A stretch of DNA of 43,391 nucleotides from Candidatus Thermoplasmatota archaeon (GTDB taxonomy: Archaea; Thermoplasmatota; Thermoplasmata; RBG-16-68-12; JAGMCJ01): NCBI GenBank assembly GCA_022848865.1, contig JAJISE010000013.1, forward strand, positions 1-43,391, read 5' to 3'. Positions 5,332 through 26,543 of this stretch are shown here, one piece after another. The notes beneath the pieces were generated by a model. It saw only the letters and a program-made list of their open reading frames with translations. It was not told the DNA's origin and did not search any database. Positions within the stretch are counted from its first letter, which is position 1; the number at the start of each line of letters is the position of its first letter. Both the position numbers and the translations under genes were made by a program.

Positions 5332-8043
5332 CTACTTGATGCGCTCCAGGCTGAAGGCGCCTATGATGAGCCCGCGGTCCGTCCGTTTGTACTGGACCCA
5401 CTCGCGCGTCTGGACGTCGCACACGCCCTGGATTGACAGGAACGTCTTCGTGTCCTCCTCCTTGAACATGACCGCCCCGTCCATCTGGTGCTCGATGGTC
5501 TCGATCTCCCTCTGGTCGTGCATCCCCCTCTCGAGGGCGAACGCGCCCACGAAACGGGTCTGGCGAAGGTCATTGACCATCCTCTGGATGAAGTCGTACG
5601 CCTCGCTCGGCTCCGAGTGCGATAAGCTCGGCGACAGGCTGAGGTACGCTATCCGGAAGTACTCGTGCTCTTCCCCGAGGACCGCCTCGATCTCGTGCAG
5701 ACCTTCCAGTATGTTGCCCAGGTCCGCCGCCCCGTTGACCCTGTACACGCGCTTCTCCTTGTCGAACCCAACCGCATCAGGCGGGATCTGGGAGGTCGCG
5801 TCGATCCACTTGACGAGACCGATGCGCTCGTACTCGACGAACTCCACGAGGATCGGACCCATGTCCCTGGAGATCTCCTGCGGCGGCTTGGACGTCGTGA
5901 CGATGACGGCGGGGATGCCCTTTCTGAGGCCCTCCGCTATGAAGTTGAGTATGGCGACCTCCTTCCCGAGGAAGGACGGGCCGATGAAGAGAACGTTCGA
6001 ATTGAACGGAATGCCCCCGTACATGAGGTCGTCGAGCTTCGTGATGCCCGTCCTGACCTTCTCCACCTTCTTCTCCTCGATTACCTCTTCCTCCATGTCG
6101 GAGATGTCCTCCCTGAGCTTCTGCTGGAGCGCTTTCTCCCGCATCTCGAGCCCCTTCTCCCTCTGGTAGGTCACGTTCTTGAGCTCCCTCTCCTTCGTGC
6201 GGAGCCTCTCCTCGCGCACGCGAATCGCTCTCTCCCTCTCCCCGTGATCCGCCCCTTCAGCCGCGGCGCTCTGCGTCGCCTCGAGAGCCGTGAGCTTCAT
6301 CCTGGCCTCCTTCTCCTCGAGCGCCTTCTCGCGCTCGATCAGGGCCTTCATCCTCCCGCCAATGGACTTGGATTCCCCCTCGAGCCTCTCCTCCAGCTCG
6401 TTTATCGTCTTCTCCTTGTGCTGGATCTCCATCTCCTTGGTCTCCACCTCCTCCTTGAGCGAGTCGTAGTCGGTCACCTTCTTGCGGGCCTCAGCGGACA
6501 GCTGCCTGAGGTTCTCCTCCCTCTCCTTCAACTGCTGCGCATCCTCGGTCAGGGCGGTACTGCCCATCTCGAACGTCTCCCTCTCCTCCTGGAGCTTCGA
6601 CTCGCGGTCGGCCACCTCGACCTCCTTGAGGACATACGCCTCTTCCCTGACCTTCAGGTCCTCGAACCTCTCCGCGAGCGAGGACCCCCGCTCGTTCAGC
6701 TCGGACTTCCACTCCTCCAGCTCCGTCGTCGCGGAGTCCAGCTCGGCCTCCTTGTCCTTGAGCCGGGTCTCCCATTCCTCCAGGGTCGGGGCTTCGCCCC
6801 CGCTGGCAGGAACGCCGGCTGACGGTTCCCGCTCAAGAACGGCGAGCTCCTTCTCGCGAGCGATGATGTCGTCCCTCTTCTTGCCCAGTTCCGTGCGGGC
6901 CTGTTCGTGCCTATTCCTCTCCTTGCCCATCGCCTTCTCGAGGGACGTGAGCTCGCGCATCTTCGCATCATGCTGGATTTCCCGCCGCCGGAGCTTGCTC
7001 TCCCTTCTCTGGAGCGTGGCGGCCGTTCTCGTGAGGTCCTGCCTCACCCGCTTGGACTTCTCCGACTGCGCCTTGACCTCGCCCTTCACTATCTCCATCT
7101 CGCTCATCTTGGCGTCGGCGTCGGCCTTGATCGCCCCGATCCTCCTCTCCATCGCGAGGAACTCGTGCTCCTTCTTGTCGATATGCACCTGGAACTCGTG
7201 CATGTCCTTGCGCCGGGACTCGATGTACATGAGCGCTCTGGACAGCTCCTTGTCGTAGCTCTCCAGGTGGGCCTCCCTTGCCAGGAGGGCCTTCTCCCTT
7301 CGGTCGACCAGCGACTGGCGGGAGCTGAGCTCCTTCCCCAATGTGGACATCTTGTCACTGTTCGCGCGGATTATGTGCCGCTCCTGCGCGGACGTCGAGC
7401 TCGCGAGTACGTGGAGCATGGACCCGCTCAGCTGGTAGCTTATGGCGCTCCCGAGGTAGCCCATCACGAGGGGGAGGTAGCTTGGCGGGAGGGCGGATAC
7501 GATCATTATCATGCTGACAAGGACCATCGGGATCGTCGACGACCCTACGCTGGTCACCTTTCTCAGACCCTTCCCCCGCCAGGTCATCGCCATGGAGATC
7601 ATGGTGAGCGACAGGCCCAGCAGGGACACGGGGTATATCCAGGGCAGGTACTGGAACTGAAGGACACCGGACTCGGCCACGAGAACGATGACCAGGCCGA
7701 TGACCGGCACGGTCGTCCCGAGCACTGTGAGGATGAAATGCCCGCTCGTCCTCTCGTAGGAGTAGGGCTCCCATTTGAGCGCGAGTGCGGAAGCTCCAAC
7801 GCCGATGCCGATCATCATGGGGAGCGTCCAAAGAAGAAGAACCGCCGAGGAGAAAGGCGGGTCGGCGAATATCTCGGTGACTTCCATAAGGTATGCGAGT
7901 ATGGCGTTGAACGTGAGCACCATGGCGGCAATTACGCCGTAGCCGTGAGCCGCCCTTCCCATGCGAAGCTGCAGCCTCGCAGTCTCTGCGGCCATTGCGG
8001 CCCGCTCCGCTTTCTTGCGCTTATCGCGAGTACCACTGGCCAT
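5332..8043 (-). CDS. Membrane protein with long coiled coil and degenerate RecA/KaiC-like domain
   Basis: A 903-residue three-part protein. Residues about 35-215 hold roughly six hydrophobic helices. Residues about 230-655 are a highly charged heptad-rich coiled coil (Glu/Lys/Arg dense). Residues 663-903 form a RecA/KaiC-like domain that begins VRTGITKLDDLMYGGIP. Its Walker A is GPSFLGKE (688-695), with Glu where KaiC/RadA proteins have Thr or Ser. The Walker B strand (RIAYLSLS, about 797-804) lacks the usual aspartate. ATP hydrolysis is therefore doubtful. Domain order suggests a membrane-tethered stalk presenting a sensor or scaffold domain in the cytoplasm. It is divergent from the M18 peptidase gene. 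No specific function is known to me. Confidence 0.85.
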   Translation of the reverse strand: MASGTRDKRKKAERAAMAAETARLQLRMGRAAHGYGVIAAMVLTFNAILAYLMEVTEIFADPPFSSAVLLLWTLPMMIGIGVGASALALKWEPYSYERTSGHFILTVLGTTVPVIGLVIVLVAESGVLQFQYLPWIYPVSLLGLSLTMISMAMTWRGKGLRKVTSVGSSTIPMVLVSMIMIVSALPPSYLPLVMGYLGSAISYQLSGSMLHVLASSTSAQERHIIRANSDKMSTLGKELSSRQSLVDRREKALLAREAHLESYDKELSRALMYIESRRKDMHEFQVHIDKKEHEFLAMERRIGAIKADADAKMSEMEIVKGEVKAQSEKSKRVRQDLTRTAATLQRRESKLRRREIQHDAKMRELTSLEKAMGKERNRHEQARTELGKKRDDIIAREKELAVLEREPSAGVPASGGEAPTLEEWETRLKDKEAELDSATTELEEWKSELNERGSSLAERFEDLKVREEAYVLKEVEVADRESKLQEERETFEMGSTALTEDAQQLKEREENLRQLSAEARKKVTDYDSLKEEVETKEMEIQHKEKTINELEERLEGESKSIGGRMKALIEREKALEEKEARMKLTALEATQSAAAEGADHGERERAIRVREERLRTKERELKNVTYQREKGLEMREKALQQKLREDISDMEEEVIEEKKVEKVRTGITKLDDLMYGGIPFNSNVLFIGPSFLGKEVAILNFIAEGLRKGIPAVIVTTSKPPQEISRDMGPILVEFVEYERIGLVKWIDATSQIPPDAVGFDKEKRVYRVNGAADLGNILEGLHEIEAVLGEEHEYFRIAYLSLSPSLSHSEPSEAYDFIQRMVNDLRQTRFVGAFALERGMHDQREIETIEHQMDGAVMFKEEDTKTFLSIQGVCDVQTREWVQYKRTDRGLIIGAFSLERIK

Positions 8044-9620: not shown

Positions 9621-10508
9621 TTACTTCCGACGCCTCTCGATGTAGAGGGCAGCGAGTATCAGCGCGATGACCACGGCCACGGGGATCAGCCAGAAGAGCA
9701 GCGGCAGAACCTCGTCATCGGGCGACTGTGCCGCGGCGTACGTATACGAGAGCAGCTCCCACTGGCTGATCACGACAACGCCGCCTGTGCTCCTGTCGAT
9801 GCGCACGCCCGCGCCGACCTCATCGGAGTAGTAGTTGTCCTCCACGAGGCCGTTGGATTCCGTCCTGAGTATGTGATGCGTCTGGAACACGCCCGCCTGA
9901 ACTGTGATCTCGGCGTACTCGACACAGGAATAGGTGACGGCGACCGAGCCGCTCCAGTCCGTCGAGGTGTAGATCGGCGCGCTTCCCTCGATCTCCACGA
10001 GCATCGTCTCGTTCGACGTCCTCGTGAGCGTCACGTTCCCGCTGTCACCGACATCATAGGGATGTTGCCAGGCGTCCAGCACGACATCGCTGTGAGTCGT
10101 GTTCTGAATGCTGAGATAGAAGTTGAGAGGAACCCCCACGTCCATGAGACCGCGAAAGACGAGAGTGGTCTGGGACCTGACTATCTCCAAGCTCACGATG
10201 TCCCAATTCTCCAGTCCGACCATCGTCCAGTTGCCAGAGACGTTATGGCCCTCGAAGACGCCGATGAACGTCCCGTTGCCGATGATCTCGTTCCGAATTG
10301 TGTGGTACGGCGTGGAGTCGACGTATACCCTCTCGGTGTCCGTGATCGCCATTTCGAGCGTTCCGGCCAGGACGAACCCCAGAGAATGGGTCATGTTCGC
10401 CGAGTAGACCCAGCTATTGCCTTCCTCGTAGCTCGGCATTAGGACCTGTCCCTCCGCCAGTCCAGATGAGACTGAAAGGAGGGTCATCGCCGTCAATGCA
10501 AACACCAA
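9621..10508 (-). CDS. Exported, C-terminally membrane-anchored protein of unknown function
   Basis: A 295-residue protein with an N-terminal signal-like helix (VFALTAMTLLSVSSGLA), an extracellular portion rich in Thr/Ser/Asn with several Asn-x-Ser/Thr sequons, and a C-terminal transmembrane helix (about 268-288, FWLIPVAVVIALILAALYI) ending in the basic tail ERRRK. The body seems all-beta. I do not recognise a family. No ATG is available for the whole signal segment; TTG at 10508 or GTG at 10505 is the likely start. It lies 33 bases downstream of the 7TM-DUF835 gene on the same strand and may be co-transcribed. Confidence 0.75.
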   Translation of the reverse strand: MVFALTAMTLLSVSSGLAEGQVLMPSYEEGNSWVYSANMTHSLGFVLAGTLEMAITDTERVYVDSTPYHTIRNEIIGNGTFIGVFEGHNVSGNWTMVGLENWDIVSLEIVRSQTTLVFRGLMDVGVPLNFYLSIQNTTHSDVVLDAWQHPYDVGDSGNVTLTRTSNETMLVEIEGSAPIYTSTDWSGSVAVTYSCVEYAEITVQAGVFQTHHILRTESNGLVEDNYYSDEVGAGVRIDRSTGGVVVISQWELLSYTYAAAQSPDDEVLPLLFWLIPVAVVIALILAALYIERRRK

Positions 10509-10541: not shown

Positions 10542-11936
10542 TCAAGTCTTGGCCTTCTCCCTCACCGTCCCATTGACGAGGTTCTCGTTCTCGGAGGGGG
10601 CCTCCGCCACCGCGTCCCTCAGCGTTGGATGCCCCAGCTCGACAAAGTCCCTCTTGATGAGGGCGAACTCCTTCTCGTCCAGAGCATTCGGGTCCAAGGG
10701 CACTATCAGGATGGATTCCTCCATGGCCATCCTCTCGTTGAGGTCGTGAAGGAGCGTCAGAGACGATTGGAAGTCGTTGTGGGAGATTATGTACTCCAGG
10801 CCATCGAGGAGCACGACGGTCTTCTCGCCCTCGGCGACGAAGTGCTCGACCGCGATCGATATCCCTTCCAGCGGCCAGGGCCTTATCGTGTCCTTCCCCG
10901 TGGAAACCCTACTGAGCCAGAGAACGGGTGTCTTCTCCAGGCCGTATTCCGCCCTCACCCTCTGGGGCGGGAGTCGGGTGATGCAGAGGCCCTGGTACCC
11001 GTGAGTGACCAGGTCCTTGAAGGCGTCGAAGCTCAGGCTCGGGGAATCGTCGACGACAAGGTAGCTCAGCCCGTCGTGGAGTTCGAACCTCCGCTCGGTG
11101 CCCAGGTCCGCCTCCGTGATCGGTACGAGGAGCTCCTGCAGATAGCCTGGCCCCCTGACAGCGTAGGCGACGAGACCGAGCATCAGGATGCCGAACAGGA
11201 ACCCGATGCCCCTGAGGTCGACGGCCTGGCTGGGCAGAAGAACTTCGAACAGGAGTTCCGACAGCGTGTAGGAGACGATGCCAATGGCGATGAGGTACGT
11301 GTTGAGTGCCACGGACCGAGGCACTCTCGTCTTGACCAGATAGCTTGAGAGCTTGTATGGGATGAAGATCAGCGTCGCCACAGTAGCGAGGAGCAACATG
11401 CCTATGAACCAGAGAGGGAACACGAAGGTGAACGTGCCCCCGGCCTCGTGCAGGACGTCTACGGGCGCGATTGCCGTCGAGATGATGGCCGCGACCATTA
11501 CGACGAGGTAGAATATGTACGCGCTCGGGAACTCCTTACGGAGATTCCAGAAAAGGTCCCTCGCACCCTTCACGTCGGGGTTGGCGATGACCACGGCGAA
11601 CGCCCCGGCCGTTATGCCCATGAGCAGGTCGAAGGTCGCCTGGACCTTCTTGCCCACGGTCAGGAGGTTGCCGGAATCCGACTGGGCGATCGACGTGTAG
11701 ATGAAGAGATGAGCGGAGATGGCGCACACGAGGAAGAGAATCGAGAGCAAGAGAAGGGACTTGTGAAATCCCTTCATCGTCTTCTGCCTGAGCAGAGCGA
11801 TGACTATGATAACCGACATCGTCAGGGCCGCGAAGACAGTGACATACTGGAGTATTCCAATACCTCCATCTAGTGCTATCTGGTCGTCTTTCCACGCATT
11901 TCGCATCCTAAAAAGCATGCCGTTTCCGTTATCCAT
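10542..11936 (-). CDS. Seven-transmembrane protein with C-terminal DUF835 domain
   Basis: A 464-residue protein from the first ATG (11936). It has seven hydrophobic helices between about residues 24 and 290, then a cytoplasmic DUF835-type domain (about 305-435). Characteristic DUF835 features are SYLVVDDSPSLSFDAFKDLV, a central WLSRV strand, and VVLLDGLEYIISHNDF, where the Asp and Gly-Leu-Glu-Tyr are typical. DUF835 is found mainly in Thermoplasmata and Thermococci, often on sensor-like membrane proteins, and resembles a RecA-like fold without nucleotide motifs. TTG (11984) and GTG (11978) starts are also possible. It is divergent from the terpene-synthase-like gene, and the AT-rich AATATTAAT at 12016-12024 could serve both. 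Confidence 0.82.
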   Translation of the reverse strand: MDNGNGMLFRMRNAWKDDQIALDGGIGILQYVTVFAALTMSVIIVIALLRQKTMKGFHKSLLLLSILFLVCAISAHLFIYTSIAQSDSGNLLTVGKKVQATFDLLMGITAGAFAVVIANPDVKGARDLFWNLRKEFPSAYIFYLVVMVAAIISTAIAPVDVLHEAGGTFTFVFPLWFIGMLLLATVATLIFIPYKLSSYLVKTRVPRSVALNTYLIAIGIVSYTLSELLFEVLLPSQAVDLRGIGFLFGILMLGLVAYAVRGPGYLQELLVPITEADLGTERRFELHDGLSYLVVDDSPSLSFDAFKDLVTHGYQGLCITRLPPQRVRAEYGLEKTPVLWLSRVSTGKDTIRPWPLEGISIAVEHFVAEGEKTVVLLDGLEYIISHNDFQSSLTLLHDLNERMAMEESILIVPLDPNALDEKEFALIKRDFVELGHPTLRDAVAEAPSENENLVNGTVREKAKT

Positions 11937-12015
11937 AATGATAATCCAGGTAGTCCTGGACAGAGGGAGCGGACTCACTCTCAATAGAGATAATCAGTTT
12001 TGATTTCCGTCCGAG

Positions 12016-12076: not shown

Positions 12077-13360
12077 ATGGCACAGAGGACTATTGAGCTC
12101 AGCTCCAACGATGTCGACATACTATCGGACATTGTAACGAAGCTGGGAGGTCATGCCAAGGGCCTCCTGAATGACGTGGACCTTGGCATCAGCAGGTCGA
12201 GGCTTTCGTGGCACATCGACGAGGTCCACCGCAACCTCACAAGGCTCAGAGAGTCGAACGGAGGTAGGACCATAGCTCTGAGACCGCCCGGGCTGAACAA
12301 CAGTCCCGTGCTGGACAACATGGGGGACACGTGGAACTACGTCCAGACGCTCAGATTCGCTGCCGGAGCCACCATGATCTCGCAGAGGTACCAGAGGTTC
12401 ATGTCCGCCGAGACCCTGAGGAGGTCCATGCTCGCGAAGATACTCTACAAGTGCCAGACGGGGATCCTGGACGACCTCGTGGACACTCACAGGTACTCAT
12501 ACATAGAGGCGAAGGACCTCTATCACCACGTTCTGTCCTCGATGACGGACCCGGACTTCGAGATGAACGCGTTCAAGAACAAGCTGACGTCGATGATGAA
12601 GCAGGAGCAGCTGGGCCTGTTCGACCTCGTGACGGACATAACGGCGAGCTTCAACGAGATGTTCGTCGAATCGCCGCACGGCCACGAGCTCTTCTATCAG
12701 ATGGACATCCTGGACGAGAGGGTCACGCTGGGTCAGGCGTTGACGATGTTCCAGAAGGAGGGTTCCCTGGACACCGTCAAGATCAGGAGGATCGCCTCGC
12801 GCTTCTACTCCCCCGCGGAGGACCTCGAATGGTATGACCGCTTGGCGAACTACGTGAGCGGGGGGACGAGGTACAATCTCATAGACATCTCGTTCTGCGA
12901 CAGCGCCCTCGACATGAACCAGATCAACACGCTTCTGGAGGGGTGGTTCTACTACGACGTCGTAATCGTGTACCTCAACAACATCGTGCACATATACCAG
13001 GACCTGAAGGAGGGCATAGCGAACCTGTCGCTGATATCCATGCGGGAGGAGGAGGTTTCCGGCCTCAAGACGCTGGCAGGGTACAATCCCAGGCTGACGA
13101 CGGACGACTACTCCGATCACATACGCAGGCTCGCCGGATACGCCTCGCGAGCTCTCGACGTGGTGACGAACGGATACGAAGACGAGACGCTCTACTACCC
13201 GTTCATCACGGTGATGATGCCCGTGGTGATGATGGCCGAGTGGATAGGGAAACAGGACTCCTTCATCGGTCTCTACCTGGACGAGCTGTCACCGGCCCTG
13301 CAGAGAGCGGCAGCGGAGGTCGCGGAGGTCGCACCCGAGCCCGCCGAGGCTGTCGTCTAG
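12077..13360 (+). CDS. All-alpha protein with class I isoprenoid/terpene synthase-like motifs
   Basis: A 427-residue, almost wholly helical protein with no signal peptide. Residues 132-136 are DDLVD, a perfect DDxxD, at the end of a hydrophobic helix (ILYKCQTGIL). Residues 301-309 are NNIVHIYQD, close to the second metal motif of class I terpene synthases (NDxxSxxxE) or prenyl synthases (DDxxD), followed by LKEGIANLSLI, which resembles the Gly-Glu/Asn-Leu-Val stretch after that motif. The 165-residue spacing is somewhat long for the family. A product cannot be named. The N-terminal 75 residues and the Ala/Glu/Pro tail are unlike known enzymes. The motifs are seen; membership in the fold is inference. 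It could also be a helical scaffold where the resemblance is chance. Confidence 0.6.
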   Translation: MAQRTIELSSNDVDILSDIVTKLGGHAKGLLNDVDLGISRSRLSWHIDEVHRNLTRLRESNGGRTIALRPPGLNNSPVLDNMGDTWNYVQTLRFAAGATMISQRYQRFMSAETLRRSMLAKILYKCQTGILDDLVDTHRYSYIEAKDLYHHVLSSMTDPDFEMNAFKNKLTSMMKQEQLGLFDLVTDITASFNEMFVESPHGHELFYQMDILDERVTLGQALTMFQKEGSLDTVKIRRIASRFYSPAEDLEWYDRLANYVSGGTRYNLIDISFCDSALDMNQINTLLEGWFYYDVVIVYLNNIVHIYQDLKEGIANLSLISMREEEVSGLKTLAGYNPRLTTDDYSDHIRRLAGYASRALDVVTNGYEDETLYYPFITVMMPVVMMAEWIGKQDSFIGLYLDELSPALQRAAAEVAEVAPEPAEAVV

Positions 13361-17263: not shown

Positions 17264-17347
17264 AACGGCCCGATTTCCAAGGCAGTTCGGTTTGGAGCGG
17301 CCTTGGAGTGGAGGCACAACGCGAGGGGGAGAGATACGCCGGACGCA

Positions 17348-17911
17348 ATGGTTGTTAAGTTAAAGATATGTCTAGTCGGCGATTCCGCCGTCGGCAAGAC
17401 GAGCCTTGTTCGCCGCTACGTGAAGGACCAGTTCGATGACGGCTATCTCAAGACGGTGGGAGCGAAGATAGCCAAGAAGACGCTGGTAATCCCCTGGAAT
17501 GGTACCGAGATCAGAGTGGATATGATCCTCTGGGACATAGCGGGCATCGGTGGAAGGGAGTCCGTTCTCGGGAGAGGTTACCTTGCGGGGACTCAAGGTG
17601 TGCTGGCGGTGTGCGACGCCACGGACGACAAGACGATATCTGGTGTAACCGACTGGATCCAGACGGTGAGAGAGCTGGTTGGCGATGTCCCGGTACAGAT
17701 CGTCATCAACAAGGCCGATGCTCGCGACGCAGACGCTCCGGGGCTCTCGCTGAATGTTGACGGAAGCATCTCGTGCATCCGCGTGAGCGCCAAGACGGGC
17801 AGCAACGTCGAGAAGGCGTTCTACGACCTGGCAAGGAGCATCGTCCTCGAAGGGATCGCCCAGAGGATGGCCACAGAAGAAGGAAGGTCCGTTCTCCGTC
17901 CACAAGCTTAA
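17348..17911 (+). CDS. Ras/Rab-like small GTPase
   Basis: A 187-residue archaeal Ras-superfamily GTPase. G1 is GDSAVGKTS (residues 10-18), a threonine in KTVGAK serves as G2, G3 is WDIAGIGG, G4 is NKAD and G5 is SAKTG. In G3 the residue after Gly is Ile, where Ras has the catalytic Gln61, so intrinsic hydrolysis may be slow or use another mechanism. There is no C-terminal prenylation motif. The ATG at 17348 is chosen over a TTG at 17303 because the earlier residues precede the first beta strand with no similarity. The TATA element of the next gene overlaps its stop. A partner or pathway cannot be inferred beyond proximity to the gene at 16713. Confidence 0.87.
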   Translation: MVVKLKICLVGDSAVGKTSLVRRYVKDQFDDGYLKTVGAKIAKKTLVIPWNGTEIRVDMILWDIAGIGGRESVLGRGYLAGTQGVLAVCDATDDKTISGVTDWIQTVRELVGDVPVQIVINKADARDADAPGLSLNVDGSISCIRVSAKTGSNVEKAFYDLARSIVLEGIAQRMATEEGRSVLRPQA

Positions 17912-23202: not shown

Positions 23203-24267
23203 CTATCTAGACCTTCTCTTGAGCCAACTCGCGACCGCAGGCCACACTTCTCTGTGTGCTCTCCCGCCAACGGACAGCCCAACGTGTCCGGTGTTGCAAC
23301 TGATTGAGTCCCTCTGCTTTGAGGATACATGCTCCAATAGTGCTTCCGTGGACTCGGGGGGCACTATGTGGTCTTTCAAACCTGTTATCGTAAGAACCGG
23401 CATGCGGATCTTCCCAAGATCCACTCTTCTCCCGCAGACCCTCAACTCGCCAGATGTCAACTGATTCTGCTGATACCATTTCTCTATGAGGTCCATGTAG
23501 AAGGCACCTGTCATCGGAATGCCATCGTGAATCCACTTCTCCATGCGGAAGAAGGTCTCCGTGAACTCCTCGTTATCCGCGTTCTCCCAAAGGTCCAGGT
23601 ACTTGAGGTGGAGATTCCCCACGGGGTCGAGGGACTTGAACGTCCACGTGAAGAGCTCCATTGGCACGTTTCCGAAGGCGTCTACTAGCTTGCTCGCATC
23701 AATGTACTCTTCGTTGGTCCACACGTGAAGGAGAGAACCGTCACAGTGGAACTCTATGGGAGCGGCCATTATGACCAGATTCTGTATCTTCTCGGGATGG
23801 GTCGAGGCGTATATGCTCGCAAGTGTTCCTCCTATGCAGTATCCCATCAACGATATCTTCTCGAGTTCTTGGCTCTCCAGAATCCAGTCGACGACATCAT
23901 TCAGGTAGCCTTCCACATAGTCCTCCGTGCAGAGGTGCCTGTCTTCCTCTCCTGGTGACCCCCAGTAGACCATGTAGACGTCGATGCCCTTACTCAGCAG
24001 GGACTCGACAACGCTCCGCTTCGGCTCAAGGTCCAAGATGTATGGCTTGTTCAGGAGCGCATAAACGATGAGCAGAGGAGGTCCGGCTCGCTTTTTCCTG
24101 ACTGGACGATAGTGGTGCAGTTCCACCTTGTCCTTCCTCCAAACGACCTCCTTGGGGGTCGGTCCAACATCGACATCCAGAGGTCGCCATGGCAGCTGAA
24201 GAGAGTATGGCCAGCTCCCCGCTTCTTCTCCCCGCCAACGTGGTAGTTCATCTCTTTCTGCTGCCAA
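23203..24267 (-). CDS. phaC: Class III poly(3-hydroxyalkanoate) synthase catalytic subunit PhaC
   Basis: A 354-residue alpha/beta hydrolase that polymerises (R)-3-hydroxyacyl-CoA at the granule surface. The lipase-like box is GYCIGG with nucleophile Cys144; Asp299 is in GLKDHIVPP and His328 in NTGHVGLSVG. These positions nearly match class III PhaC of Allochromatium (149/302/331 from memory). The length (about 350) and a PhaE-like gene directly upstream support class III rather than class I. The start is a TTG at 24267 with GGGAGGGG eight to nine bases ahead; no in-frame ATG precedes the conserved region. It overlaps the PhaE-like gene by 20 bases, so translation is probably coupled. Confidence 0.93.
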   Translation of the reverse strand: MAAERDELPRWRGEEAGSWPYSLQLPWRPLDVDVGPTPKEVVWRKDKVELHHYRPVRKKRAGPPLLIVYALLNKPYILDLEPKRSVVESLLSKGIDVYMVYWGSPGEEDRHLCTEDYVEGYLNDVVDWILESQELEKISLMGYCIGGTLASIYASTHPEKIQNLVIMAAPIEFHCDGSLLHVWTNEEYIDASKLVDAFGNVPMELFTWTFKSLDPVGNLHLKYLDLWENADNEEFTETFFRMEKWIHDGIPMTGAFYMDLIEKWYQQNQLTSGELRVCGRRVDLGKIRMPVLTITGLKDHIVPPESTEALLEHVSSKQRDSISCNTGHVGLSVGGRAHREVWPAVASWLKRRSR

Positions 24268-24763
24268 GGTGGGATTCCCCTCCCTTCTTCGTTGACTCTG
24301 ACATCTTCTCCACTTGCTTCCTCAGCTCATACACTTCTTTGTGTATCTCCGACATTTCTCCACAAGTAACGAGTCCCATCGATTTCAGCGATTGGTCCTG
24401 GGCATCCTGCAAGAGGATCTTCCAATCGAGGAAGGCATCTAGATTTCTCGCGTAGAAGCGCAGGACAGAGGGCGTTCCCAGCATCTCGTCGACCATTTCG
24501 GAGTGTCGCCGTGCGAATTCACGATACTTCTCTCGAGATGTCGCGTCCTCTTGGTTGGGGAAATCTCCGAGGTTCTCCATCATTCTGCTGAAGTGCTCTC
24601 TCGCTATCCTGGCAACATCCGCACTGGCTTCCGCGGAGCTCTCATAGTAATCCCGCGCCCTCTCCAGAGCCTCCATGTTTTTCGTCATCATGAGCTGCCA
24701 ATCAATGGGTGATCCACTCCAGTTGCCTGCCTTCTTGGGTTCTCCGTGCTTACTGTCGCTCAT
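24248..24763 (-). CDS. PhaE-like PHA synthase subunit
   Basis: A 171-residue helical protein. The segment from about residue 68 (FPNQEDATSREKYREFARRH, then GTPSVLRFYARNLDAFLDW at 96-114) resembles PhaE, the activating subunit of class III PHA synthase. The C-terminal GEMSEIHKEVYELRKQVEKM (135-154) matches the short conserved tail in which the Tyr-Glu-Leu-Arg unit pairs with PhaC. At 171 residues it is about half the usual bacterial PhaE and closer to the short haloarchaeal form. ATG 24763 follows GGTG in CAGGTGT; the frame stays open to 25006, but that stretch lies over the preceding gene and is not PhaE-like. It overlaps phaC by 20 bases. Confidence 0.8.
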   Translation of the reverse strand: MSDSKHGEPKKAGNWSGSPIDWQLMMTKNMEALERARDYYESSAEASADVARIAREHFSRMMENLGDFPNQEDATSREKYREFARRHSEMVDEMLGTPSVLRFYARNLDAFLDWKILLQDAQDQSLKSMGLVTCGEMSEIHKEVYELRKQVEKMSESTKKGGESHLGSRKR

Positions 24764-24792
24764 TGGCATACACCTGCAAGGACGAGCCGAGT

Positions 24793-25725
24793 CTATCTGG
24801 ACTTCTCCAGCTTCTTCACTCTCTTGGTGAGCTCCTTCAATTGCTTCTTCAGATGCTCGTTCTCCTTTCGGGTCGAAAGGTCGAAGGCCTCCTGCCAAGG
24901 CTCTTGGGAATCGAAGTACCATTTCCAGAGCTCGTCGTAGTTGGTCCCGAAATTCCTCGTCAAGTGGATGACCTCCTTCTCCACTCTGGATAGATACTCG
25001 GACCATGCATTCTGAAGACCTTCGAATCCGCCGTTGTTGGAGGAGACTAGTGATCTCAGGTTATTTCCCATCGTGTCGGACTGCTTTCCCCAGAGCTCAA
25101 CGAAGTCCCTATAGCTTTCCCCGTCTGCCTCGAGAGAGTTCACGATCTGTCCCATCTTCGTGTAGAAGTCCGTCCAGGTCTCGGTCAGTTGATTCAACTC
25201 CTCTGACCCGTGCTCAGCGGTGTCTTCCATCCACTTCTGCATGTCAGATGTGAATCCCCGCCAGCTGTCATAGAGGATTGACTGCTCCCAATCGATCTGA
25301 CCGCCTGAGGCGAGAGCTGAGAGTTGACTGTTGAAATCCTTGGACGAATCCCTCCAGTTCTTCTGGAGATCCTCGTGCCGCTCCATCGTTGTGTTCATCA
25401 CGGATGTGAGCCTGTTGTACATCTTGTTCGAGTAGTTCCTCCAGATGTCATAGAGCTCTCTCAACTGAAGGTCCTCAGCATTTTTCGAGGCTCTTGAGCC
25501 AACGGTCTTGTAGAACTCAGTCCATTCGCTCGCGAAGTCCTCGTACGTCTTCCTTTGCTCTTCTGCGTTCTTGTCTATCCTGGAACCGATGCCCTCCTGG
25601 AAATCCGTCCACGCTTCGCAGAGCTGAAGATAGCCTTCAGAGACCTGTGCGATGGACTGGGAAAGGTCCTCATAGGGCATCCATTCCTCAGTTGCCTTTT
25701 TCTTCTTTGCCTTTTTCGTTGCCAT
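24793..25725 (-). CDS. Phasin-like or second PhaE-like granule protein
   Basis: A 310-residue helical protein. A lysine/alanine-rich N-terminus (MATKKAKKKKATEEW) is followed by repeated segments with spaced Trp and Tyr (EAWTDFQEGIG, SEWTEFYKTVG, ETWTDFYTKMG) at about residues 38, 68 and 190. A final coiled coil runs LKKQLKELTKRVKKLEK. The repeated EWTEFY-type motif suggests amphipathic helices that coat a hydrophobic surface. The position between the PhaB-like and PhaE-like genes supports a phasin or granule-bound role. Overlap with family Phasin_2 or PhaE models was not tested. The ATG at 25725 has GAGGTG nine bases upstream. Confidence 0.7.
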   Translation of the reverse strand: MATKKAKKKKATEEWMPYEDLSQSIAQVSEGYLQLCEAWTDFQEGIGSRIDKNAEEQRKTYEDFASEWTEFYKTVGSRASKNAEDLQLRELYDIWRNYSNKMYNRLTSVMNTTMERHEDLQKNWRDSSKDFNSQLSALASGGQIDWEQSILYDSWRGFTSDMQKWMEDTAEHGSEELNQLTETWTDFYTKMGQIVNSLEADGESYRDFVELWGKQSDTMGNNLRSLVSSNNGGFEGLQNAWSEYLSRVEKEVIHLTRNFGTNYDELWKWYFDSQEPWQEAFDLSTRKENEHLKKQLKELTKRVKKLEKSR

Positions 25726-25742: not shown

Positions 25743-26543
25743 TCACAGATACATTCCACCATTGATATTGAGAACATGACCCGTGATGTAGTCAGCATCT
25801 TCAGAGGCGAGATATGCGACCGCTCGCGCAATCTCTCTCGGAAGGCCAAACCGCCCAAGCGGGATGTTGGTGAGTATCTTCTCCCTCACCTTCTGCGGTA
25901 TGCCGGACAACATGTCGGTCTCGATGAATCCCGGAGAGACAGCATTCACGGTTATTCCGTCTCTTGCGAGTTCCTTGGCAAGTGTCTTGGTCAATCCGAT
26001 GAGACCAGCCTTTGAAGCTGCGTAGTTGGCTTGGCCGATGTTACCCATCTGGCCTACGATCGAGGAGATATTGACTATCCTCGGACGCTTGGATTGCTTG
26101 AGGTGGTCGAGGAAAACCCGGGAACAGTTGAAAACGCCGTTGAGGTTCACGGAAATGACCTCTGTCCACGCGTCCTCATCCATCTTAGAGAACAACCCGT
26201 CTCTGTTTATCCCCGCGTTATTGACCAGAATGTCGACATTCCCCACGTGGGTCTCAACGCTTTCCCTCATTCTCTTCACCTGGTCTGTGTCGCCAACATC
26301 GGCGCAATAGACCCATGTGTTCTTCCCCAGGCTCTCTATCTCGACGGCAATCCTGTCTGCATCATCGTCGCTCGATCTGTAGTTTATAACGACATCCGCG
26401 CCCTCCTCTGCGAGTGCCCTGGCGATCTCCTTCCCAATGCCCCTGGACGCTCCCGTGACGAGAGCCAGAAGACCGTCTAGTCTACCCGACACGGGGCTTG
26501 TCTCCTCACCGCCTGAGATTCTGAAGAGCTCCTCGGTTTTCAA
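25743..26543 (-). CDS. Acetoacetyl-CoA/3-ketoacyl reductase, PhaB/FabG-type SDR
   Basis: A 266-residue short-chain dehydrogenase and first gene of the PHA cluster. The core starts near residue 25 with TGASRGIG; NNAGINRDGLFSKM and the catalytic Ser, Tyr and Lys (NISSIVGQMGNIGQANYAASKAG) follow. GNIGQANYAASKAG resembles PhaB (NRQKGQFGQANYSAAKAG in Cupriavidus, from memory), so acetoacetyl-CoA to (R)-3-hydroxybutyryl-CoA with NADPH is the best guess; FabG activity is the alternative. NYRSSDDD leaves the NADPH/NADH choice open. The start is a TTG at 26543, with an extra 24 N-terminal residues before the fold. The next gene starts 17 bases downstream. A palindrome lies at 26679-26696 upstream. Confidence 0.88.
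   Translation of the reverse strand: MKTEELFRISGGEETSPVSGRLDGLLALVTGASRGIGKEIARALAEEGADVVINYRSSDDDADRIAVEIESLGKNTWVYCADVGDTDQVKRMRESVETHVGNVDILVNNAGINRDGLFSKMDEDAWTEVISVNLNGVFNCSRVFLDHLKQSKRPRIVNISSIVGQMGNIGQANYAASKAGLIGLTKTLAKELARDGITVNAVSPGFIETDMLSGIPQKVREKILTNIPLGRFGLPREIARAVAYLASEDADYITGHVLNINGGMYL

Follow-up and report, generated by a model that had tools for sequence, protein, structure and literature searches.

The locus described here raises the question of whether a 427-residue archaeal protein with a DDxxD motif and a less regular second motif is a distant class I terpene synthase, as an initial annotation had proposed, and, if so, to which branch of these enzymes it belongs. The window, by which we mean the whole stretch of 43,391 nucleotides that was analyzed, comes from a genome of 2,026,789 bases in 136 contigs. 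Its host order, RBG-16-68-12 in GTDB, is Ca. Angelarchaeales (PMC9038741) and also bears the name Ca. Yaplasmales. The open frame lies on the forward strand, with an ATG at 12077 and a stop ending at 13360, and encodes 427 amino acids. Comparisons inside the window's genus gave a dN/dS of approximately 0.1-0.16, indicating that the gene is under purifying selection. The features of the locus are given below, where BalTS is a bacterial class IB enzyme and P0002 is a second class I-like protein of the same genome.

10542..11984, reverse strand: membrane protein with a C-terminal DUF835 domain, the divergent neighbor, kept beside the gene across the order
12077..13360, forward strand: putative class IB-like isoprenoid synthase gene, 427 aa, from its frame, homologs, conservation, predicted fold and dN/dS
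12470..12484, forward strand: motif 1, DDLVD, residues 132-136; D132, D133 and D136 invariant (26 homologs); aligns with DYLDNLCD of BalTS
12830..12832, forward strand: W252, in register with the class IB Trp and, in both, 49 residues ahead of motif 2
12977..13003, forward strand: motif 2, NNIVHIYQD, residues 301-309; aligns with DYFIDQEED of BalTS and NDVHTIDRE of P0002
13013..13024, forward strand: G313 and N316, 3' of motif 2; G313 in 25 of 26 homologs, N316 invariant

Homologs and distribution of the family

Neither the 427-residue protein nor any of the 26 family members matched a Pfam or NCBIfam model, the terpene synthase models included. Searches of PDB sequences, performed with the single protein and with a profile, returned designed repeat proteins, a ROP variant, HSP90 and further matches attributable to chance, and nothing else. 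An N-terminal winged-helix regulator was considered and dropped, its sole hint being an ArsR chain at an E of 1.2 in the PDB sequence search.

The family was detected in 34 of 37 genomes of RBG-16-68-12 and in 10 of the 11 high-quality ones. Outside the order, 24 genomes of the same class gave no match, and 390 genomes drawn across the phylum returned three matches, each inside RBG-16-68-12. Among the genomes sampled, the family is restricted to this one archaeal order. The named relatives are MAGs from several environments, labelled Thermoplasmata, Methanomassiliicoccales or Euryarchaeota. Homologs maintain high identity inside the genus (90-99%) and 44-57% identity in other families of the order, and several f4 and f5 genomes hold a second, diverged copy (23-33% identity). 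At the paralog loci L032, L033, L035, L036, L037 and L038, the copy is adjoined by a gene whose winged-helix N-terminus is HVO_A0261-like or MarR-like; the C-terminal half of this gene is conserved, and its product is possibly a ligand-responsive regulator.

Motif conservation and predicted fold

The elements on which the initial annotation was based, namely DDxxD at residues 132-136, NNIVHIYQD at 301-309 and, right after it, LKEGIANLSLI (residues 310-320), are all present in the translation. A DDxxD by itself turns up in 17% of composition shuffles (P ~0.17) and is therefore weak evidence when taken alone. DDxxD together with a relaxed second motif occurred in 0.2% of composition shuffles, the pattern having been set after the protein was seen. 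Conservation was evaluated over 26 homologs (20 orthologs and 6 paralogs, down to 23% identity). Seven columns are invariant in this set (D132, D133, D136, A145, W290, D309 and N316), and four of the seven fall within the 14 motif positions of the initial annotation (hypergeometric P 2.4e-5). As judged from this alignment, the conservation of the motif residues is not a matter of chance, unlike the occurrence of DDxxD, and it is the conservation that carries the weight.

The expectation that homologs would retain the motif residues was borne out at the key positions, whereas the suggestion that the Asn, His and Asp changes in motif 2 signal a lost reaction found no support. In 26 of 26 homologs, residue 309 is D and residue 301 is one of N, D and E. 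Residue 305 varies among S, G, N, H, D and T; histidine is confined to the window's genus, and its relatives have S, G, N, D or T. We dropped His305 as a mark of lost activity because it is seen only in that genus, and lost activity is unlikely given that the aspartates of the metal-binding type are invariant. Since residue 302 is N, H or T in the family, 309 is D and 305 varies, the canonical NDxxS/TxxxE pattern is not matched. The region just ahead of motif 1 separates the two copies: residue 129 is glycine in all 20 orthologs and aspartate in all 6 paralogs, resulting in GxxDDxxD in the former versus DxxDDxxD in the latter.

An AlphaFold2 model built from the family alignment (pLDDT 89.5, pTM 0.91) is all-helical save two 3-residue strands. 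In this model, helix 111-137 has motif 1 at its end, and motif 2 starts at the end of helix 280-303, with a chain break before helix 306-311. A Foldseek search against the PDB gave three matches with an E below 0.001, every one of them BalTS (5yo8, 6loo), with E values of about 3.4e-5 to 5e-5, a probability of 1.00 and a target-normalized TM of 0.65-0.66. The superposition rmsd was approximately 11 A over the full alignment, so the match to BalTS concerns the fold and not its detail. FPP synthases and other terpene synthases followed BalTS in the ranking, and all 50 among the PDB fold matches listed are enzymes of the isoprenoid synthase fold. A search of a viral structure library with the same model gave no match. 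The all-helical model and its matches to BalTS, FPP synthases and terpene synthases support the class I isoprenoid synthase fold for this protein, which was the fold anticipated from the motifs.

The reading of NNIVHIYQD as a near match to the second metal motif gained independent backing from P0002 (G000:C42:5205-6182, forward strand, locus L092), which is encoded outside the window and carries canonical DDxxD and NDxxTxxxE motifs as DDAAD and NDVHTIDRE. The homologs of P0002 come from two groups only, the window's genus and family f2, and D90, D91, D94, N230, D231, T234 and E238 are invariant in nine of them. The P0002 model (pLDDT 75.7) has terpene synthases and FPP synthases as its fold matches, and its similarity to PF19086 (E 5e-4) falls short of the curated cut-off. 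Alignment of the P0002 profile with the 427-residue family covered 97 columns (P 0.0075) and placed N301, H305 and D309 on N230, T234 and E238, the positions of an NDxxTxxxE motif. Directly upstream of P0002 are UbiD, KaiC-like and 7TM-DUF835 genes.

Comparison with class IB and other isoprenoid enzymes

The nearest solved relatives by fold are class IB or "large-terpene" synthases, the group of BalTS of Bacillus alcalophilus (5yo8, 6loo) and YtpB of B. subtilis (PF10776/DUF2600). BalTS carries the motifs DYLDNLxD and DY(F,L,W)IDxxED while YtpB is without canonical motifs, and these YtpB-type (class IB) enzymes, described from Bacillus, are reported not to resemble other terpene synthases in sequence (PMC7839719). 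DUF2600 sequences for comparison were collected with a YtpB sequence as probe, and the conclusions use only the PDB and plasmid sequences that it returned; the plasmids held one full-length and one partial sequence, and viral contigs gave no further DUF2600 sequence. An hhalign comparison of the family with BalTS and an Anoxybacillus homolog, the only two DUF2600 sequences in the profile, aligned 211 columns (P 0.0062) and put both motifs and W252 in register. The score of this two-sequence comparison was 28.9, versus a maximum of 23.3 among 200 column shuffles. In the merged alignment, Q220, K227, E228, W252, motif 2 and N316 fall at matching positions, with N316 aligned to an Asn that the two class IB sequences share. 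In this alignment the likeness runs from the first motif, where DYLDNLxD corresponds to [G/D]xxDDxxD and the paralogs retain the first Asp, to a second motif in register, with the Asn that comes after it and the Trp that precedes it by 49 residues.

The two groups also differ. Identity between class IB and the archaeal family is 10-11%, and the literal motifs DYLDNLxD and DY(F,L,W)IDxxED are absent from the family. The class IB second motif reads DxxxDxxED, whereas the archaeal one is reduced to N/D/E, a variable residue 305 and a final Asp (N/D/E-xxx-variable-xxx-D). The archaeal protein is also approximately 45 residues longer at its N-terminus. The N-terminal extension noted in the initial annotation does exist, but it is modest: DDxxD starts at residue 132 and its BalTS counterpart is Asp 88, counted in the aligned part of the solved chain. 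The family is archaeal and is not recognized by the DUF2600 model; no member matched PF10776 even at an E of 10, the host genome gave no PF10776 match, and the sampled genomes of the phylum contained nothing above cut-off for PF10776 or PF19086. Because the Pfam model misses the family, we call it class IB-like without assigning it to DUF2600.

Other isoprenoid enzymes resemble the family less closely. Canonical class I terpene synthases (PF19086; DDxxD, NDxxSxxxE) share the fold, the DDxxD and the spacing of motif 2, but residues 302 and 305 of the family depart from NDxxS/T and the fold matches are weaker than those to BalTS. The initial proposal of a distant class I terpene synthase is supported by fold and motifs, with the amendment that the nearest solved relatives are class IB/DUF2600 enzymes and not canonical ones. 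The trans-polyprenyl diphosphate synthases (PF00348) are alike in fold and DDxxD and are encoded beside the family gene in most relatives; the family, however, has a single DDxxD, its second motif is not DDxxD, and it shows no PF00348 match. As a control, hhalign of the family against polyprenyl synthetases gave no significant alignment (P 0.24). Squalene/phytoene synthases (PF00494) share the superfamily fold, with a weak fold match to human squalene synthase 1ezf; the corresponding hhalign control was also without significant alignment (P 0.43), and the host genome has no PF00494 match.

Gene neighborhood and candidate function

The DUF835 membrane protein gene is divergent from the family gene wherever the contig reaches far enough, with a small ORF between the two at L069. 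The host genome contains approximately 14 DUF835 matches, and their number alone does not account for the constant pairing. Downstream of the DUF835 gene in the window is a gene for a secreted-type protein (9621-10508, reverse strand), and these two genes (9621-10508 and 10542-11984, both reverse strand) appear as a single fused ORF of 742-770 aa in f2 (e.g. L048). At 16 loci a polyprenyl diphosphate synthase gene lies 3' of the family gene on the same strand, approximately 13-136 bases on; at L056 and L068 a KaiC-like gene stands between them. The polyprenyl diphosphate synthase gene is followed by a geranylgeranyl reductase gene and then a beta-CASP nuclease gene, and several loci have a second GGR-like gene and a TrmB regulator nearby. 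The arrangement differs in f2 and in the window's genus, where the isoprenoid gene block is elsewhere. In the host genome the polyprenyl synthetase ortholog is on contig C20, and in the window the 3' end of the family gene faces a convergent gene for an M28 peptidase.

On balance, we favor a divergent class IB-like class I enzyme that would carry out Mg2+-dependent ionization of a polyprenyl diphosphate of at least C20, followed by cyclization or quenching; it is probably a terpene cyclase acting on a C20 or longer chain. In such an enzyme, Mg2+ and the diphosphate are most likely held by residues of two helices, D132, D133 and D136 belonging to the first and N301, residue 305 and D309 to the second. 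The polyprenyl diphosphate would be ionized and the carbocation closed or quenched, yielding a terpene. The polyprenyl diphosphate synthase encoded alongside in most relatives probably supplies the substrate, a chain of C20 or more, and the neighboring geranylgeranyl reductase may then reduce the product. In favor of this reading are the high confidence of the model, for which BalTS provides the sole PDB matches at an E below 0.001, and the invariance of the motif aspartates down to 23% identity. The alignment of motif 2 with the NDxxTxxxE of P0002, the synteny with isoprenoid genes and the purifying selection point the same way. The profile alignment with BalTS counts on both sides, in favor for the correspondence that it suggests and against for its two sequences and P of 0.006. 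Also against this reading are the missing DUF2600 match, the reduced second motif, the separation of the isoprenoid genes from the family gene in the window's own genus and the near-universal presence of the gene in the order, which is unusual for a secondary-metabolite cyclase.

That near-core distribution suggests a basic function and favors the main rival, a class I prenyltransferase that joins two prenyl units or prenylates another acceptor for lipids or quinones. The fold family is the same, FPP synthases come next among the fold matches, and the gene is grouped with lipid-precursor genes. We nevertheless consider it unlikely, since a separate polyprenyl synthetase gene already adjoins, the profiles show no similarity to polyprenyl synthetases or SQS/PSY, and the closest fold is that of a terpene synthase. 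Still less probable is a non-catalytic protein, either a partner or regulator of the polyprenyl synthetase or a sensor of prenyl diphosphates acting with the DUF835 membrane protein. Such a role would accommodate the constant DUF835 pairing, the linkage to the polyprenyl synthetase gene and the variable residue 305, and some polyprenyl synthases are heteromers in which size control falls to a subunit of its own (PMC7839719); but conservation in the family peaks at the metal-binding aspartates, needless in a pure scaffold, and the gene is kept in f1 and f2 without an adjacent synthetase. An unrelated helical protein with motifs by chance, for which the frequency of DDxxD in shuffles and the lack of Pfam or NCBIfam matches could be cited, is highly improbable given that the conserved residues are the motif residues, that the listed fold matches all have the isoprenoid synthase fold and that relatives show isoprenoid synteny.

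For the class IB-like enzyme, the class I isoprenoid synthase with class IB-like features is the known part, and an archaeal, order-wide branch absent from Pfam and NCBIfam is the new one. Tentatively, and with less confidence than in the enzyme assignment itself, we propose that it forms an order-own branch of class I terpene synthases, kin to bacterial class IB, near-core and linked to polyprenyl diphosphate synthesis and reduction, that would make a cyclic terpenoid lipid new to archaea. A divergent archaeal branch would widen class IB and give sequences between class IB and the canonical enzymes, and the DxxDDxxD paralogs and GxxDDxxD orthologs offer a usable natural series. The order reportedly reaches up to ~11% of the community in certain layers of deep-sea sediment (PMC9239135). 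Given this abundance, the near-universal gene and the isoprenoid genes alongside in most relatives, the enzyme could supply the order with a membrane or quinone-type terpenoid, a possible biomarker. The phrase 'archaeal terpene synthase' was not found in a search of the open-access literature, and two papers on the order (PMC9239135 and PMC9038741) make no mention of terpenes or isoprenoids.

Several other genes of the window merit mention. A PhaC-like synthase and a PhaE-like subunit are encoded at 23203-25725 (reverse strand), followed by a short-chain dehydrogenase at 25743-26543; these are genes for polyhydroxyalkanoate synthesis in an archaeon of RBG-16-68-12. The reverse-strand frame at 5332-8043 encodes a 903-aa protein with a C-terminal KaiC-like ATPase domain and, as read from its sequence, apparent N-terminal membrane helices and a long charged coiled-coil-like region. 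An archaeal Ras-family small GTPase (PF00071, E 6e-26) is encoded at 17303-17911 on the forward strand.
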